This document shows, in pieces, positions 322 through 7,912 of a stretch of 7,912 nucleotides of DNA; the first letter of the stretch is position 1, and every line of letters starts with the position of its first letter. Position numbers and translations under genes: made by a program. The stretch is taken from assembly GCA_002780065.1 (NCBI GenBank), contig PEWQ01000036.1, positions 1 through 7,912 on the forward strand, given 5' to 3'. This stretch comes from Candidatus Hydrogenedentes bacterium CG07_land_8_20_14_0_80_42_17 (GTDB lineage: Bacteria > UBA8481). The notes under the pieces were generated by a model, which was not told the origin of the DNA, ran no database searches, and worked only from the letters and a program-made list of their open reading frames with translations.

Positions 322-1065
322 TCAATATGATATCTTTTTTAATCTTTCTCTAAGAGCGGCAATTCTCCGCTTTGATAAATCAGTTCCGACAGTTTCGCAA
401 AATAATATTTCTGTCTCAAGCGCTGATTGCACAGAAGATTTTAAGTCTTTTATTTTCGAAGAGAAGGCAAAGTTCCGAGTATTTACAAAATCCGGTGCAA
501 TCTTCTCTACGACTTTATCGACGTTTGACGGCTCGATACTCCCGCCAATCGAAGTATGATAACCTAAAGCCTTCGCCGATTTCACAACTCTCGAAGAAGC
601 ATTTATGACCGTCATATTATCAGGAGAGCGCCCCATGGATTTAGAGAGATCGCCTCTTCCTACCGTAATCTGAGATAATCTTCGATTCTCATCAGCAGAG
701 AGTATTTCTGAAAGATGCTTCACTGCGCTCTTAGTCTCGATGTTAATTCCAAGAAAAACTTTTTTTGCTCCAAATACCTCTTCAACACCTTTGAGATAAT
801 CATGAAGCGCATAACTCGATTCTATCATCGGCGCAATGAAATGCGAAATTCCGATCTCGCGCGAAAAAAGCAGATCACCGCGCGCACAAGGTCCTCCGAC
901 CTTCAACTCGATATCAATAATTTTATTTAGCTCGCGATAAATCTTTGCAACGTCCGATTGAATAAGCCCTTCATCTTCAGTTGAGATCTTCATCATTACA
1001 CAACCGCGCTCTCGCACTAAACTCTCAAGAGCTTTTTTGAAAACAGAAATATTTTTCTTCTTCAT
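322..1065 (-). CDS. HpcH/HpaI-family aldolase (citrate lyase-like TIM barrel)
   Basis: Predicted 247-aa cytoplasmic aldolase of the HpcH/HpaI and citrate-lyase-beta superfamily. These metal-dependent TIM-barrel enzymes make or break C-C bonds between pyruvate or acetyl-CoA-type donors and aldehydes. Visible family motifs are LKVGG (54-58), APMIESSYAL (78-87), NIET with E110 and VGRGDLS with D139. E110 and D139 match the Glu and Asp that hold the divalent metal in this fold. TSIGGSIEPSN (171-181) is the late barrel motif. The start at 1065 is preferred over the longer frame from 1095 because GGAGGT lies nine bases upstream (minus strand, 1080-1075) and because it gives an ATGA overlap with the preceding gene. 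It is the last of four coupled sugar genes. An aldol condensation on a deacylated or acylated amino sugar would fit, but the substrate is unknown. Confidence 0.85.
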   Translation of the reverse strand: MKKKNISVFKKALESLVRERGCVMMKISTEDEGLIQSDVAKIYRELNKIIDIELKVGGPCARGDLLFSREIGISHFIAPMIESSYALHDYLKGVEEVFGAKKVFLGINIETKSAVKHLSEILSADENRRLSQITVGRGDLSKSMGRSPDNMTVINASSRVVKSAKALGYHTSIGGSIEPSNVDKVVEKIAPDFVNTRNFAFSSKIKDLKSSVQSALETEILFCETVGTDLSKRRIAALRERLKKISY

Positions 1066-2081
1066 CTGCCCATTACCTCCATGATAGCTCCGCATATCCG
1101 GTCAACTCCTTTTCCATCAATAAGCCTTTCCAATGCGCGTGACATAGCTTTTCTCTTCTCCTCAGATTCCAAGCTCCTAACAATCGGCGTAAGATTCAGA
1201 ATCGGATTATTCGAAGAAAGCCCAATGTTGATTATCCCTCCTATCGCTTCGAACTTGGGAAGGTTCTTCAATTGTGCAATATTTTGGCAGACAACAATAC
1301 TCGGAAGTCCGAGAAAAGCCGCCTCAAATAAAGTTATTCCTCCGGAAATTATTCCGAGCTGAGCCTTTCGCATTCTCTCAAAAAGATTCTTCGGAGATTC
1401 GACAATATCGAATGTTCTCGCAGAATTTAAAAGAGCTTCATTTAATTTTGCAGACGGTGCGAAATCAGGTCCTAAAATCAGTTCGACTTCAACATCCGTT
1501 GATAAGTTCGAAAGACCTGCTACAACTTTAGGAGTCACGCCTGACGGATCACTGCCTCCGCAAGAAACAATTATCCGCTGTATAAACTTTTCGTCCCGAC
1601 GAATTTTTTTCGCGGCGCGGCACTCCTTCGAGATCACAGCGTAGTCTTCACCAAGAAGATACCGTGTATTCGTCTCTAATTTTTTCGGGTTCTTCTCTTC
1701 GCTCAAATTCGCATCGACAACAATATCCGCAAGGTATCTTCCTTCGCCTAAATCGTCAAAAGAGACAACATAAATTCCATATTTTTTTAGAGCCGCGATA
1801 AGTTCATGACTAGTAGATCTAATATCAAAAACTACCAGAGTCGGGCAAACTGAAAGGATAGCTTCAATTTCAGTTTCAAGTTGATTTTCAGCTTCTCCAT
1901 TAAATTTTACAATTTCGAATTCAGAATCTTTCAAAAGTTCTATAACTTTCGAGTCATTCTTCGTCACGAAAACCGGTGTGAAGTCAAGATTCTTTATCTC
2001 ATCCGCAAGAGCGCGAGTTCTAGAAAAATGTCCGATTCCTATCTCTTTATTCGCATCAACCCTAAAAACAGCTTTCGTCAT
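1062..2081 (-). CDS. pseG: PseG/SpsG-type UDP-sugar hydrolase
   Basis: Predicted 339-aa GT-B-fold hydrolase of the PseG/SpsG family. The reference enzyme PseG removes UDP from UDP-2,4-diacetamido-2,4,6-trideoxy-L-altrose in pseudaminic acid synthesis. The N-terminus carries the family signature FRVDANKEIGIGH, with H18 at the position of the catalytic His of PseG. SFDDLGEGRYLADIVVDAN lies near the middle, SCGGSDPSG opens the C-terminal nucleotide-binding half, and ISGGITLFEAAFLGLPS matches the UDP-binding loop region. Its ATG overlaps the stop codon of the spsF-like gene by four bases, and its own stop overlaps the aldolase start in the same way. Only a weak GGAA stands as ribosome site, consistent with translational coupling. 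The family call is firm. The exact UDP-sugar is not, because the neighbours (WbpD-like transferase, aldolase) differ from a standard pse operon. Confidence 0.85.
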   Translation of the reverse strand: MTKAVFRVDANKEIGIGHFSRTRALADEIKNLDFTPVFVTKNDSKVIELLKDSEFEIVKFNGEAENQLETEIEAILSVCPTLVVFDIRSTSHELIAALKKYGIYVVSFDDLGEGRYLADIVVDANLSEEKNPKKLETNTRYLLGEDYAVISKECRAAKKIRRDEKFIQRIIVSCGGSDPSGVTPKVVAGLSNLSTDVEVELILGPDFAPSAKLNEALLNSARTFDIVESPKNLFERMRKAQLGIISGGITLFEAAFLGLPSIVVCQNIAQLKNLPKFEAIGGIINIGLSSNNPILNLTPIVRSLESEEKRKAMSRALERLIDGKGVDRICGAIMEVMGR

Positions 2082-2743
2082 TGCTTATTTCCAAGAAACG
2101 AAATTACTGATTCCAGCGAAGGAAAATCGCCCAACGCAGAAAAAATTTTTCTGAACTGATCGAGGTCTTCTTCGGTATCGGCAGTCAAGCGCGGCTGAGA
2201 TTCAAAGAATGGAGCATCGACATAGAGAAGATCAAAGCGCTTCGGATATCGATAGATGTAAGGCATCACATGCTCACGGTCGCTCTTATCAACCGCTTCG
2301 GCGGAGGCGGTAAGAAGTATATCACTGTGAGCTCCTTCCGCTCCTGTGCCGAGCGGAAAGCTTCTGGTGCAGCAACTTTTATGACTTCTCAATGTCTCAG
2401 CTACACCGCAAATTGCCCGAGAGTCAACTAACGGATCGTCGCCGCAGATGCGAATGAATTTTTTAACGTTAAATTTTTTCACAGTTCCTGCAAATCGTTC
2501 AAGCACATCCTCTTCGCTTCCTCTAAAAATCTTCCATCCGCGTTTTTTGCCCAGAGCCTCCAGCACATCGTCGCGATTAGAATCAGGCAGTGCCATAATT
2601 TTTATTCCGTCAAAAATTTTCTCGAGTCGAAACATAACTCGTTCCATGAAAGGCTTGCCATTAATATCCGCCATTGATTTTCCAGGCCTACGCGTCGAAC
2701 CCATTCTTGCCTGAAGAATAAGATGAATTGAGTCAGTATTCAT
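2078..2743 (-). CDS. spsF: SpsF-type cytidylyltransferase
   Basis: Predicted 221-aa nucleotidyltransferase of the SpsF / CMP-Kdo synthetase-like group, which activates acidic sugars with CTP. The N-terminal nucleotide-binding motif [15 protein letters not shown] (8-22) is the hallmark of SpsF proteins. ICGDDPLVD (99-107) holds the metal-binding aspartates, REHVMPYIY (156-164) and [10 protein letters not shown] (185-194) are the conserved C-terminal motifs. The open frame extends 74 codons further upstream, but that part lies antiparallel-frame inside the acetyltransferase gene and lacks family resemblance. The ATG at 2743 places the signature at the N-terminus and overlaps the upstream stop as ATGA. 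No Shine-Dalgarno sequence precedes it, so translation probably depends on coupling. The expected product is a CMP-activated sugar acid made by this operon. Confidence 0.87.
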
Positions 2744-3315
2744 TTCAAAGAAATCAGCTTGCCGTTCGTCAAGGTATATGAAGTTCCACATCGTTGACAG
2801 AATGCATTCGGAGCTGTGCGCAATTCCTTCAGCAGTTCTCCGCATGCGCACGCGTAACCGAATAACTTTGCAGGAACTCCCGCGACAATTGTATAAGGAG
2901 AAACGTCTTTTGTGACGACGGCACCTGCGGCTACGAAGCAGTATTCGCCAAGTGTGACTCCGCAAACGATGGTGGAATTTGCGCCGATAGTTGAGCCTTT
3001 TTTTACAAGTATATTTTTGAACTCGTCTTTTCGTTCTACCATTGCCCTCGGATTAATTACATTCGTAAAGACGCACGAAGGCCCGCAAAAAACCCCTTCC
3101 TCCAAAGTCACTCCCATATAAACGGAAACATTGTTCTGAATTTTGCATCTGTCTCCTATAACAACATTTCGGTCAACATATACGTTCTGACCTAAAATGC
3201 AGTTTTTGCCAATGTTCGCGCCCTGCATTATATGGCAGAAATGCCAGACACGAGTTCCTTCACCAATCGAAGCGCCCTCGTCCACAATAGATGTTGGATG
3301 CACATAAGCTGACAT
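2740..3315 (-). CDS. WbpD/WlbB-like sugar N-acetyltransferase with C-terminal Cys ribbon
   Basis: Predicted 191-aa trimeric left-handed beta-helix acyltransferase using acetyl-CoA. The hexapeptide pattern runs through most of the protein ([49 protein letters not shown]). [10 protein letters not shown] (82-91) matches the conserved FTN segment of WbpD/WlbB, which acetylate the 3-amino group of a UDP-2-acetamido-3-amino glucuronate. [17 protein letters not shown] is the usual end of the helix. A tail of about 40 residues then carries CxC (156, 158) and CxxCG (173, 176), a likely zinc ribbon. AAGGAG stands seven bases before the ATG (3328-3323), the best ribosome site in the operon, so this is probably its first strongly translated gene. 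The substrate is inferred; related QdtC/FdtC/PglD-type activities cannot be excluded. Confidence 0.87.
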
Positions 3316-3357: not shown

Positions 3358-3636
3358 CTAAACAAAATTAGACATTTCCAATAATTTCTGCTCATGTTTT
3401 TCTAATACGGAGGAATCGCAGTCTGCCGCAATATCTGTGACGATACCGTCATAAGCAAGTAATTTTAAAGCCAGATACGGTTTTAATTCTCGAACCCTTC
3501 CGAACAAATCAAAATCATTGAAAAGATTTCGAAGGAGAGAATCAAACTCCTGCTCTGAGTCCAACAAATTCTCGACATCTTCCAATGCTCGTGAAAAATC
3601 ATCGGCGCCTGCATTTTTCGGCAACTTAATTTTCAT
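3358..3636 (-). CDS. Small hypothetical protein upstream of sugar operon
   Basis: I do not recognise this 92-residue product. It is acidic in its first half (clusters such as ALEDVENLLDSEQEFDSLL), looks largely helical, and has no signal peptide or membrane segment. Starts are ambiguous: ATG at 3636, ATG at 3648 or TTG at 3666; none has a Shine-Dalgarno sequence, and an in-frame stop lies directly before the TTG. 3636 is chosen because the extra residues at the longer starts are a hydrophobic stretch without ribosome site. It points the same way as the acetyltransferase, 42 bases upstream of it, so it may be the first gene of the operon or the surviving 3' end of a gene broken where the repeat zone begins. 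It may also not be expressed. Confidence 0.45.
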   Translation of the reverse strand: MKIKLPKNAGADDFSRALEDVENLLDSEQEFDSLLRNLFNDFDLFGRVRELKPYLALKLLAYDGIVTDIAADCDSSVLEKHEQKLLEMSNFV

Positions 3637-3698
3637 TAAAAGAATCATAAGTAATAGCCGGAACAATCACAATCAAAAAAAAAGGAGGCTAAATTTTG

Positions 3699-5045: not shown

Positions 5046-7802
5046 TTACGGAATCTTTACTGTTAGATTTTGGGAGTTCAATGCGTCCCAATCTCCGTCG
5101 GCAATAAATTTGTATTCGTAAATACCAGGATCCAATTCAAGCTCAATCGAATAATTACCGTTTCCGTCAGACGCCAAAGCATACTGATTCATATTCCAGC
5201 TGTTGAACGAGCCGGCTACCGTCACTTTTCTTGCATTTGGAGCGGCAACCGTAAAGAGATGCCTTCGACTGGCTTTTGCGGCAAATTTAGGTTCTAATAC
5301 TCGCTTGTAAAATTCAGGATCGTTATTGTAAAAGATCAGAGCAGAATGTTCAGGAACAATGCATCTGTCTCCGGCTAATGTCTGACCAAGCGGTTTAGTT
5401 CCTGAATGCTCCGCATTCGCAACAGGAATCCAGTTCGATGAAGGAATGGAGAATTCAGAAGCCCCGCCATGCGCATTAAATAAAACCAACACGTTTTCCC
5501 ACTCGTCACCGCTCGTTCCTTTATTCAGAACGTATCCGACTCCGCTTGTTGGAACAGTCAATCCAAGATCGTCATCGAGAAAGAACAAAGAGCGCCGCAC
5601 CTCATCGCTTTTCTTCATACGAAACATCGGATGACTTTCTCTCAAAGCGATTAAACCTTTGTAATAATCAAATACATCTCGATGCTCAAGTTTCCATCTC
5701 CAATGAATTTCATTCACTTCGTCGGGCTTATTGTAAGTGTTATCCTCACCGTTCTTGGTGCGGAGCATCTCCTGCCCTGACTGAATAAACGGGACACCCT
5801 GTGAAGTCATAATAATTGCGGCTCCGAGCTTATCCATGCGTTCAAAATCTTCCTCTGTCAATTCATTACGATTTTGCATCGTAAGTTTTATTCGATCGTA
5901 AAGCGTGTGATTGTCATGAGCCTCAATATAATTTATTGACTCCCACGGTTCTTGAGCGAAATCGGAGATCGAACCTAATATTCCTTTCTTGACTCGAAAT
6001 ACATCGCGGCCGGTCTGAATAAATCCAGGATCTTTACTGAATGCGCTTCCGCGCAATGCATCTCTGAAATGGTCGTTGAAAACTCCAAAGTTCTGTCCTC
6101 TCTGATCGCCTTTGCTTGTGACTCTTGCGCCTGTGTTGCCTCCAGCCCAAGGCTCGCCGTAAATAAATGCGTCAGGTTTTACCGCTCGCACTGCTGTACT
6201 CAACTGCTTTACAGTTTCGAGATCTATAAGTCCCATGAGATCGAATCGAAAGCCGTCGATACCATACTCTGTCACCCAATAAAGCATCGAATCGATAATA
6301 TACTTTCTGCCCATCGGCGATTCTGTTCTGAACTCGTTTCCGCATCCTGATCCATTCCAATACGAAGCATCTTCTTTAACTCGATAGTAATAATTCGGAG
6401 CGAGTCCGTTGAAACTCATCCGCACCTCAGGATTTCCTTCCGCAGTGTGATTGTAAACAACATCCATAACAACCTTGAATCCCGCCTTGTGGAGAGCAGA
6501 AACCATCTCCTTGACTTCTCTAACACGTGACGCATCGTCTCGCTTTGTCGAGAACCATCCGTCAGGAGAATTAAAATGAAACGGCATGTAGCCCCAGTTG
6601 TAGTTGTCGCTCGACTCGTTGTTGTCGAAATCCTGAAACGGCATTATCTGAATCGTATTCACTCCGAGCTCTTTCAAGTGATCGAGCCCTGTTGCAACAT
6701 CAGGATGTTCTAAAAGAGTTTTTCCAGATTCGACAAGCCCAAGATATTTTCCTCTATATTGCAGAGAGCCTTCAGGGTCAATAGTAAAATCTCTAATATG
6801 CATCTCATAAATAATTGCATCGCTTTGAGGAAAATTCGGGCCGGACGCAATCGGAGTTTCATCATGAATTATTATTCCTCTGCCGTTATGCGCCGTATTA
6901 CATCGCGAGTATGGATCGATCACTTCGAAAACGCCTTCGGGCACGGTCGAACGATATTTGTAATACCGATTCAGCAGGTCTTCCTCGACGTTTGCCTGCC
7001 AGATTCCCTCGCCGGTTTTTTTCATAGGCATAACTTTAGGGCCGCCGCCCTCGGCAGTATCCCATAATAGAACTTCGACTGAAGACGCTGTAGGCGCAAA
7101 CGTCCGAAATACGGTTCTAGACCTGCTGTAGATCGCTCCAAGCGGTCTTCCGTCAAAATAATTGTCGACGATTTTTCCGGGGCTGAGCCGCGACGGTTTG
7201 AAATCAGAGTAAGAAACATTAAGTGAAGAAATATCTTCCGGAGAAATTTCTTCGGACAATGTGAGTTTTAAAATTTTTCCCCGAGCTCCACCGAGAAGTT
7301 CAGCTTTCGTCGCGAGATAATTTTTTCCGTCTGAACTCATAATTTTAACAGCAGAAGCATTTACAGCCGAAGCGTCTATACTCTTCGAAAGAATCAACCT
7401 GATATTATTTTTATCATCGAGAAAAGCCGAAACAACTCTAGGACTCAAATCCGGCCGAGTTGAATAAACAAATTTGTCGGATTGCAAGATATAAATCTCC
7501 TTCCCCTTGTCTGAAGTCCAGTATCTGTCAGGATCGTCTTTTGAATCCCAATTCCCAAATTTAGGTATCAATCCCATTTTGGCTACAGAATTATCGAACT
7601 GAATTTTAAATACAAGTCCATATTCATCGTGAGCAGTCGAAACATATTCTTTTCCGTCACTTCCTTCAGCCCAGCTCCACAATGACCATTTATCGTAATC
7701 TCCATCCGGCCGATTGTAATGAACTATGAGTTCATCAGCATAAGCAAACTGAAAAACAGCAATTAGAAGTGTAGGGATCGAAATTGTTCTAAATTTATTC
7801 AT
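5046..7802 (-). CDS. Secreted type I pullulanase-like GH13 enzyme with extra starch-binding modules
   Basis: A 918-aa exported alpha-glucan-debranching enzyme, probably hydrolysing alpha-1,6 bonds of pullulan, amylopectin or glycogen. The signal peptide has KFR, a hydrophobic core and AYA before cleavage at about 22/23. A CBM41-like starch-binding module follows (23-110; LIVHYNRPDGDYDKWSLWSW region), then an Ig-like domain (about 119-212), and an N-terminal CBM48 (about 216-305). The GH13 barrel spans about 325-720 with YNWGYMP (401-407), DVVYNH (447-452), nucleophile D521 in GFRFD, acid/base E550 in YGEPW and D630 in EAHDNH. A beta C-domain reaches about 830. A final AMPK-like glycogen-binding module occupies 845-918 (VAGSFNSW, YEYKFIADGDW). 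ATG 7802 is preferred over TTG 7820 because AAAGGA lies eight bases upstream. All catalytic residues are present. No anchor or type IX sorting tail is seen. Confidence 0.92.
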   Translation of the reverse strand: MNKFRTISIPTLLIAVFQFAYADELIVHYNRPDGDYDKWSLWSWAEGSDGKEYVSTAHDEYGLVFKIQFDNSVAKMGLIPKFGNWDSKDDPDRYWTSDKGKEIYILQSDKFVYSTRPDLSPRVVSAFLDDKNNIRLILSKSIDASAVNASAVKIMSSDGKNYLATKAELLGGARGKILKLTLSEEISPEDISSLNVSYSDFKPSRLSPGKIVDNYFDGRPLGAIYSRSRTVFRTFAPTASSVEVLLWDTAEGGGPKVMPMKKTGEGIWQANVEEDLLNRYYKYRSTVPEGVFEVIDPYSRCNTAHNGRGIIIHDETPIASGPNFPQSDAIIYEMHIRDFTIDPEGSLQYRGKYLGLVESGKTLLEHPDVATGLDHLKELGVNTIQIMPFQDFDNNESSDNYNWGYMPFHFNSPDGWFSTKRDDASRVREVKEMVSALHKAGFKVVMDVVYNHTAEGNPEVRMSFNGLAPNYYYRVKEDASYWNGSGCGNEFRTESPMGRKYIIDSMLYWVTEYGIDGFRFDLMGLIDLETVKQLSTAVRAVKPDAFIYGEPWAGGNTGARVTSKGDQRGQNFGVFNDHFRDALRGSAFSKDPGFIQTGRDVFRVKKGILGSISDFAQEPWESINYIEAHDNHTLYDRIKLTMQNRNELTEEDFERMDKLGAAIIMTSQGVPFIQSGQEMLRTKNGEDNTYNKPDEVNEIHWRWKLEHRDVFDYYKGLIALRESHPMFRMKKSDEVRRSLFFLDDDLGLTVPTSGVGYVLNKGTSGDEWENVLVLFNAHGGASEFSIPSSNWIPVANAEHSGTKPLGQTLAGDRCIVPEHSALIFYNNDPEFYKRVLEPKFAAKASRRHLFTVAAPNARKVTVAGSFNSWNMNQYALASDGNGNYSIELELDPGIYEYKFIADGDWDALNSQNLTVKIP

Positions 7803-7810
7803 AGTATAAT

Positions 7811-7816
7811 TCCTTT
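7811..7816 (-). promoter_or_regulatory. Shine-Dalgarno site of the pullulanase
   Basis: AAAGGA on the minus strand, eight bases before the ATG at 7802. It decides the start in favour of the ATG, because the upstream in-frame TTG at 7820 would place this site inside the coding region. The 90 bases further upstream are AT-rich and probably hold the promoter, but I cannot point to a convincing -35/-10 pair. Confidence 0.6.
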
Positions 7817-7912
7817 GCAATTTTATTGCCCAAATTCAGTTGAAGATAAAAAAATTACCAATCAAATCTTCTCATGCTAACCCGATTTAATCATAAAAAT
7901 ATGTTATAGGCA

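Follow-up and report, generated by a model that had tools for sequence, protein, structure and literature searches.

An HpcH/HpaI-fold protein (here called ALD) encoded in a nonulosonic acid (NulO) operon, together with a fusion protein encoded elsewhere in the same genome, very probably belongs to the NeuB/Maf system of flagellin glycosylation. This fusion protein combines an ATP-grasp domain resembling L-amino-acid ligases with an FMN-dependent 2-hydroxyacid dehydrogenase domain and is the tightest partner of ALD across the genomes sampled. The association of ALD, the fusion protein, Maf, and NeuB is well supported.

The window, that is, the whole stretch of DNA analyzed, spans 7912 bases of contig C77, which is 8009 bp long and comes from a fragmented, 87% complete genome. 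Its operon is laid out in Table 1. A sequence-only reading had described four coupled genes, and this was borne out: all four families were matched, and the three gene junctions within 322–3315 are three ATGA start/stop overlaps, which indicates that the true starts lie at 2743 and 1065 rather than at those of the longer mechanical ORFs. The nearest solved structure to the acetyltransferase is WlbB (3mqg, E = 4e-65), and the gene is also kept in G001 (Candidatus Hydrogenedentota J006), a relative considered below. Because an acetyltransferase of the WlbB kind acts on a 3-amino sugar, the sugar made here may differ from pseudaminic or legionaminic acid. The SpsF-like protein has 6oew as its nearest solved structure. 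The PseG-like protein matches TIGR03590 with E = 1e-44 and 153.3 bits, 0.25 bits below the curated NCBIfam cut-off of 153.55, and the catalytic histidine that had been read from the sequence was confirmed when its GxGH motif was aligned with that of Campylobacter jejuni PseG (3hbm). A PseG-type hydrolase, a CMP-transferase, and an N-acetyltransferase, the combination by which a CMP-NulO operon is recognized, are thus all encoded here, and the assignment of the window operon to CMP-NulO biosynthesis, with the ALD gene as part of it, is supported. The small upstream ORF has a weakly similar counterpart in the same place in G001 (L013 10852–11352).

Table 1. Coordinates of the operon and its flanks in the window.
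Feature	Coordinates	Strand	Basis or remark
Hexapeptide N-acetyltransferase, WlbB/WbpD-like, 191 aa	2740..3315	-	Family and structure match
SpsF-like cytidylyltransferase (predicted CMP-NulO synthetase), 221 aa	2078..2743	-	CTP_transf_3, ATGA overlap
PseG-like UDP-sugar hydrolase, 339 aa, GIGHF histidine motif	1062..2081	-	TIGR03590, 3hbm
HpcH/HpaI-fold protein (PF03328), ALD, 247 aa; pyruvate/PEP-type barrel, E110 and D139	322..1065	-	
Small ORF of no known family, directly upstream of the acetyltransferase gene	3358..3666	-	Gene status unsure
Intergenic, repeat-like, contig end	1..321	.	ALD apparently the last gene of the operon

Positions 1–250 of the window hold short repeats of the AATTTGCAATTTCC and GGCGTC..GACGCC types, which are possibly why the contig breaks there. 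At the other end of the window, positions 5046–7820 (- strand) encode a pullulanase-like protein (PUD, CBM48, GH13, and a C-terminal AMPK1_CBM) that bears no relation to the operon.

ALD scores 33 bits against PF03328 (gathering cut-off 25), and 47 of 53 homologues match this family with E ≤ 0.001. E110 and D139 line up with the metal-ligand motifs IET and GPADLS of HpaI/YfaU, in agreement with the sequence-only reading that both metal ligands are present, and are invariant in all 53 homologues, as are K26, T29, E30, K55, G57, G58, E82, N108, and R197. By sequence, the nearest solved structures are the pyruvate aldolases YfaU, a 2-keto-3-deoxy sugar acid aldolase, and HpaI. ALD has the barrel, the Glu/Asp metal-ligand motifs, and PF03328 in common with these class II enzymes (YfaU 2vws, HpaI 4b5s), but identity is about 15%, the N-terminal strands do not align with theirs by sequence, and strand 3 of ALD ends in the invariant Lys55. 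HpaI-type aldolases rely on a catalytic arginine and histidine, R70 and H45 in HpaI. The predicted structure of ALD (pLDDT 96) is a pyruvate/PEP-type barrel, for which pyruvate kinase barrels, HpaI, GarL, and SbnG tied in the fold search at Z of about 17; the fold is equally near to pyruvate kinase, the citrate-lyase-like CLYBL, and the citrate synthase SbnG, and the search gives no means of telling an aldolase from a pyruvate kinase barrel.

A search of the genome contigs with a single ALD sequence gave 0 matches, and a profile of 13 sequences gave 261. In the midpoint-rooted tree, the ALD of the window groups with that of G001 (100/100), and both belong to a well-supported clade of 55 rows, which leaves out relatives from Ilyobacter and Novosphingobium. 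The ALDs of G018 and G165 also fall outside this clade although both genomes have the fusion protein and Maf. No ALD relatives were found in a search of viral contigs and phages, and the plasmid search gave three (29–32%), of which the annotated one, from Ilyobacter, lies among catabolic genes and outside the main clade. NCBIfam has no family for ALD. Divergent relatives (L044 9745–10527 and L045 9663–10481) are found near genes that read as a TPP-type enzyme and a HAD-type phosphatase, names given by sequence reading, and another carbohydrate pathway may use the ALD family.

The strongest partner of ALD could not be seen from the window because the fusion gene lies on another contig, C180. 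In G001, the fusion protein has 745 aa. The N-terminus of the fusion protein matches the L-amino-acid ligase BL00235 (3vot) and includes an LAL_C2 domain, and its C-terminus matches lactate/glycolate oxidases, with NHGGR kept in 76 of 77. The G001 genome carries the small ORF, acetyltransferase, PseG, ALD, fusion, Maf, FliS, FlgN-like, and lytic transglycosylase genes contiguously (L013/L057), in a cluster without an SpsF gene. On C180 of the window's genome (L049 5333–1780), the fusion gene is followed by maf and then by the FliS, FlgN-like, and transglycosylase genes in the G001 order, the last two being named from sequence reading rather than by profile search. By the contiguity in G001 and the same order on C180, the window operon makes up half of a locus for flagellar glycosylation, a synteny drawn from this one relative, the one other genome of the window's phylum in the sample. 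The window's genome has six PF01973 (Maf) matches. Four tandem maf-family genes are found at L226 213–6504 (G000:C66) in this genome and three in G001 (L227 6862–11883).

Among the 386 sampled genomes, ALD is found in 17, the full-length fusion protein in 18, Maf in 68, and NeuB in 127. The fusion protein is present in 15/17 ALD genomes and 3/369 others (p = 3e-22, Fisher), Maf in 15/17 and 53/369 (p = 1e-10), and Maf in all 18 fusion genomes (p = 3e-15, Fisher), although these p-values and the one for NeuB below overstate independence, given that genomes share families (about nine families stand behind the 15 genomes), and the genomes were counted irrespective of flagella. NeuB likewise accompanies the fusion protein in 18/18. 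The two ALD genomes that have neither the fusion protein nor Maf (G065 and G221) carry a divergent ALD near genes for TPP-type enzymes. A second set of ALD genomes, drawn by sequence search, consists mostly of Spirochaetota and Nitrospinota and partly overlaps with the first (e.g., G133 = G386). Here Maf is found in 47 of 50 ALD genomes, and the fusion protein is encoded in 39 of the 44 genomes that have none adjacent to ALD. The three ALD genomes without Maf also lack the fusion protein (three of the five fusion-less genomes), and every genome with the fusion protein has Maf. Three genomes of one family, G035, G180, and G314 (L220, L221, and L224), harbor the fusion protein, Maf, and NeuB with no ALD at the threshold used, and another carbon-carbon ligase may serve in them.

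The gene neighborhoods in other lineages vary. At L035 (7322–9049) and L038 (284–2017), a fused SpsF-PseG protein of 575–577 aa is followed by ALD and then by the ATP-grasp/FMN fusion, and L040 carries SpsF, PseG, ALD, fusion, and Maf genes. In G133, the fusion gene adjoins a flagellin-like gene, and ALD is found elsewhere, after a PseG-like gene. The Nitrospinota have an adjacent fusion-ALD pair (L086, L091, L099, and other loci), followed in many cases by ATP-citrate lyase genes. In the Spirochaetota, ALD and the fusion gene lie apart from one another and, for the most part, away from flagellar genes, and no consistent flagellar link was found among the neighbors of ALD. The ATP-citrate lyase linkage and the scattered Spirochaetota genes would suit a metabolic module apart from flagellin sugars, producing, for example, a small acid-amide metabolite, in which case the co-occurrence with Maf and NeuB would stem from shared lineages or motile lifestyles. 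We consider this unlikely in light of the presence of both Maf and NeuB in all 18 fusion genomes, the joint absence of Maf and the fusion protein from three ALD genomes in the second set, and clusters in which lineages unrelated to one another carry these genes physically linked to Maf, FliS, and PseG. We infer instead that ALD and the fusion protein form an accessory flagellin-glycosylation module that is widespread in the Spirochaetota and Nitrospinota.

The sequence-only reading had placed ALD in an ulosonic-acid pathway, where it would stand in for NeuB, forming the ulosonic acid from pyruvate or PEP and the amino sugar that PseG releases, or would break that acid down. The pathway and the membership of ALD in it stand; neither the substitution for NeuB nor the degradation of its product is supported. 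In favor of a substitution are the common product class, the position of the ALD gene directly after pseG in an operon without neuB, and a fold in the PEP/pyruvate barrel group that is compatible with the use of PEP. However, the window is nearly the whole contig, so the absence of neuB from it says little, and the genome search that had been called for yielded three NeuB-family genes (E = 6e-88, 6e-78, and 4e-58), two on C67 and one on C107, all unlinked to the window operon. NeuB is therefore not missing from this pathway. Directly after one of these neuB genes comes another PseG-like gene; another SpsF-like gene and a NeuA-like gene lie on the opposite strand within a few kb, and a set of NeuB, PseG-like, and SpsF-like genes is also present in G001. 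A weak match on C166, in a frame that by sequence reading resembles DAHP synthase, was not counted as a fourth NeuB. Nor are ALD and neuB mutually exclusive: NeuB is found in 17/17 ALD genomes as against 110/369 others (p = 3e-9, Fisher) and in 41/50 ALD genomes of the second set. The L039 cluster (PseG, ALD, ATP-grasp/FMN fusion, Maf, NeuB, and FliS) holds both. The stricter refutation named in the sequence-only reading, homologous operons that always carry the two genes together, is not borne out, because neuB is usually unlinked. ALD is also tied more tightly to the fusion protein than to PseG or NeuB. Given this genome-wide co-occurrence, ALD as a substitute for NeuB was rejected and is in our judgment highly improbable.

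In our reading, ALD works beside NeuB, and the operon probably supplies CMP-activated NulO for Maf-dependent flagellin O-glycosylation as follows. The acetyltransferase and the PseG-like hydrolase would prepare a free amino sugar, NeuB, encoded elsewhere in the genome, would condense this sugar with PEP, and the NeuB product would then be activated by the SpsF-like enzyme. ALD would join pyruvate to a short sugar aldehyde (e.g., glyceraldehyde), yielding a 2-keto-3-deoxy acid. The FMN domain would interconvert the keto and hydroxy forms at C2 and so set the C2 hydroxyl, and the ATP-grasp domain would link the acid by an amide bond to an amine on the NulO or on a NulO precursor, resulting in an extended polyhydroxy N-acyl group. 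What this module acts on, which way its reactions run, where the acid is attached, what is formed, and even the aldolase activity of ALD are what we infer, and we regard the case for this acyl-building mechanism as evenly poised. FMN 2-hydroxyacid enzymes usually oxidise, which counts against the proposed FMN step, and the mechanism is also weakened by the difficulty of placing the HpaI-type Arg and His in ALD, by Lys55 at the end of strand 3, which may take the place of the catalytic arginine, and by a predicted fold that matches pyruvate kinase barrels as well as aldolases. This fold and the invariant lysine would also fit a NulO substituent, N-acyl or other, that is built by different chemistry, such as a CoA- or PEP-dependent carboligation in place of a pyruvate aldol reaction, or that is not 3-deoxyhexonoyl. 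We hold this explanation to be unlikely since the solved proteins nearest to ALD by sequence, YfaU and HpaI among them, are pyruvate aldolases.

With glyceraldehyde as the aldehyde, the acyl group added by ALD and the fusion protein would be 3-deoxyhexonoyl, a specific product that we put forward only tentatively. The flagellin glycan of Treponema denticola is said to carry a 2-methoxy-4,5,6-trihydroxyhexanoyl group at N7, which we take to be the methylated form of the 3-deoxyhexonoyl group proposed here. For a mono-acetyl NulO (274.12) such as mono-acetyl pseudaminic acid, the computed mass with C7H12O5 (methylated 3-deoxyhexonoyl) is 450.18 Da. This equals within rounding the 450.2 Da given for the T. 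denticola glycan in PMC9481697, which cites Kurniyati 2017, a likeness by mass alone, which fixes no structure.

A precedent for such a module exists in the sfm operon of Shewanella, which encodes NeuB, a TPP enzyme, a ketoreductase, a methyltransferase, and an ATP-grasp ligase and is needed for flagellin modification with a 274-Da mono-acetyl NulO carrying C9H16O7 (PMC3765264). If the TPP enzyme is its carbon-carbon ligase, S. oneidensis sfmABCDE resembles the module described here in combining NeuB with a carbon-carbon ligase, a reductase, and an ATP-grasp carboxylate-amine ligase, and its product, a mono-acetyl NulO whose substituent is large, rich in oxygen, and methylated, resembles the one proposed. 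The enzymes differ, however: sfm employs a TPP enzyme and an SDR reductase, roles that would fall here to the HpcH/HpaI-fold ALD and to the FMN domain, which is fused to ATP-grasp. The Pse/Leg pathways of C. jejuni and spsCDEFGM of Bacillus subtilis (PMC7439481) have the acetyltransferase, PseG/SpsG, NeuB/SpsE, and SpsF in common with the present pathway but contain neither the aldolase nor the fusion protein; here, in addition, the operon does not include neuB, and its acetyltransferase resembles WlbB. Our literature search found no paper linking an HpcH/HpaI aldolase or an ATP-grasp/FMN fusion to flagellin glycosylation, and genes for large NulO acyl extensions were found only for the Shewanella sfm operon.

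Glycan chemistry has shown that flagellar nonulosonic acids can bear large acyl extensions. For the Spirochaetota, the Nitrospinota, and several candidate phyla, it is possible, though still doubtful, that ALD and the fusion protein constitute a new route by which a 3-deoxy-sugar-acid is built and attached, as a polyhydroxy acyl group, to the amine of a flagellar NulO, and that the same route accounts for the acyl extension of T. denticola. Two candidate genes for NulO acyl extension, and an exact mass to expect of the product, are hereby named for lineages whose flagellin glycosylation is poorly studied. A testable function is thereby proposed for the ALD subfamily and the fusion protein, which Pfam and NCBIfam have so far described by their domains only.
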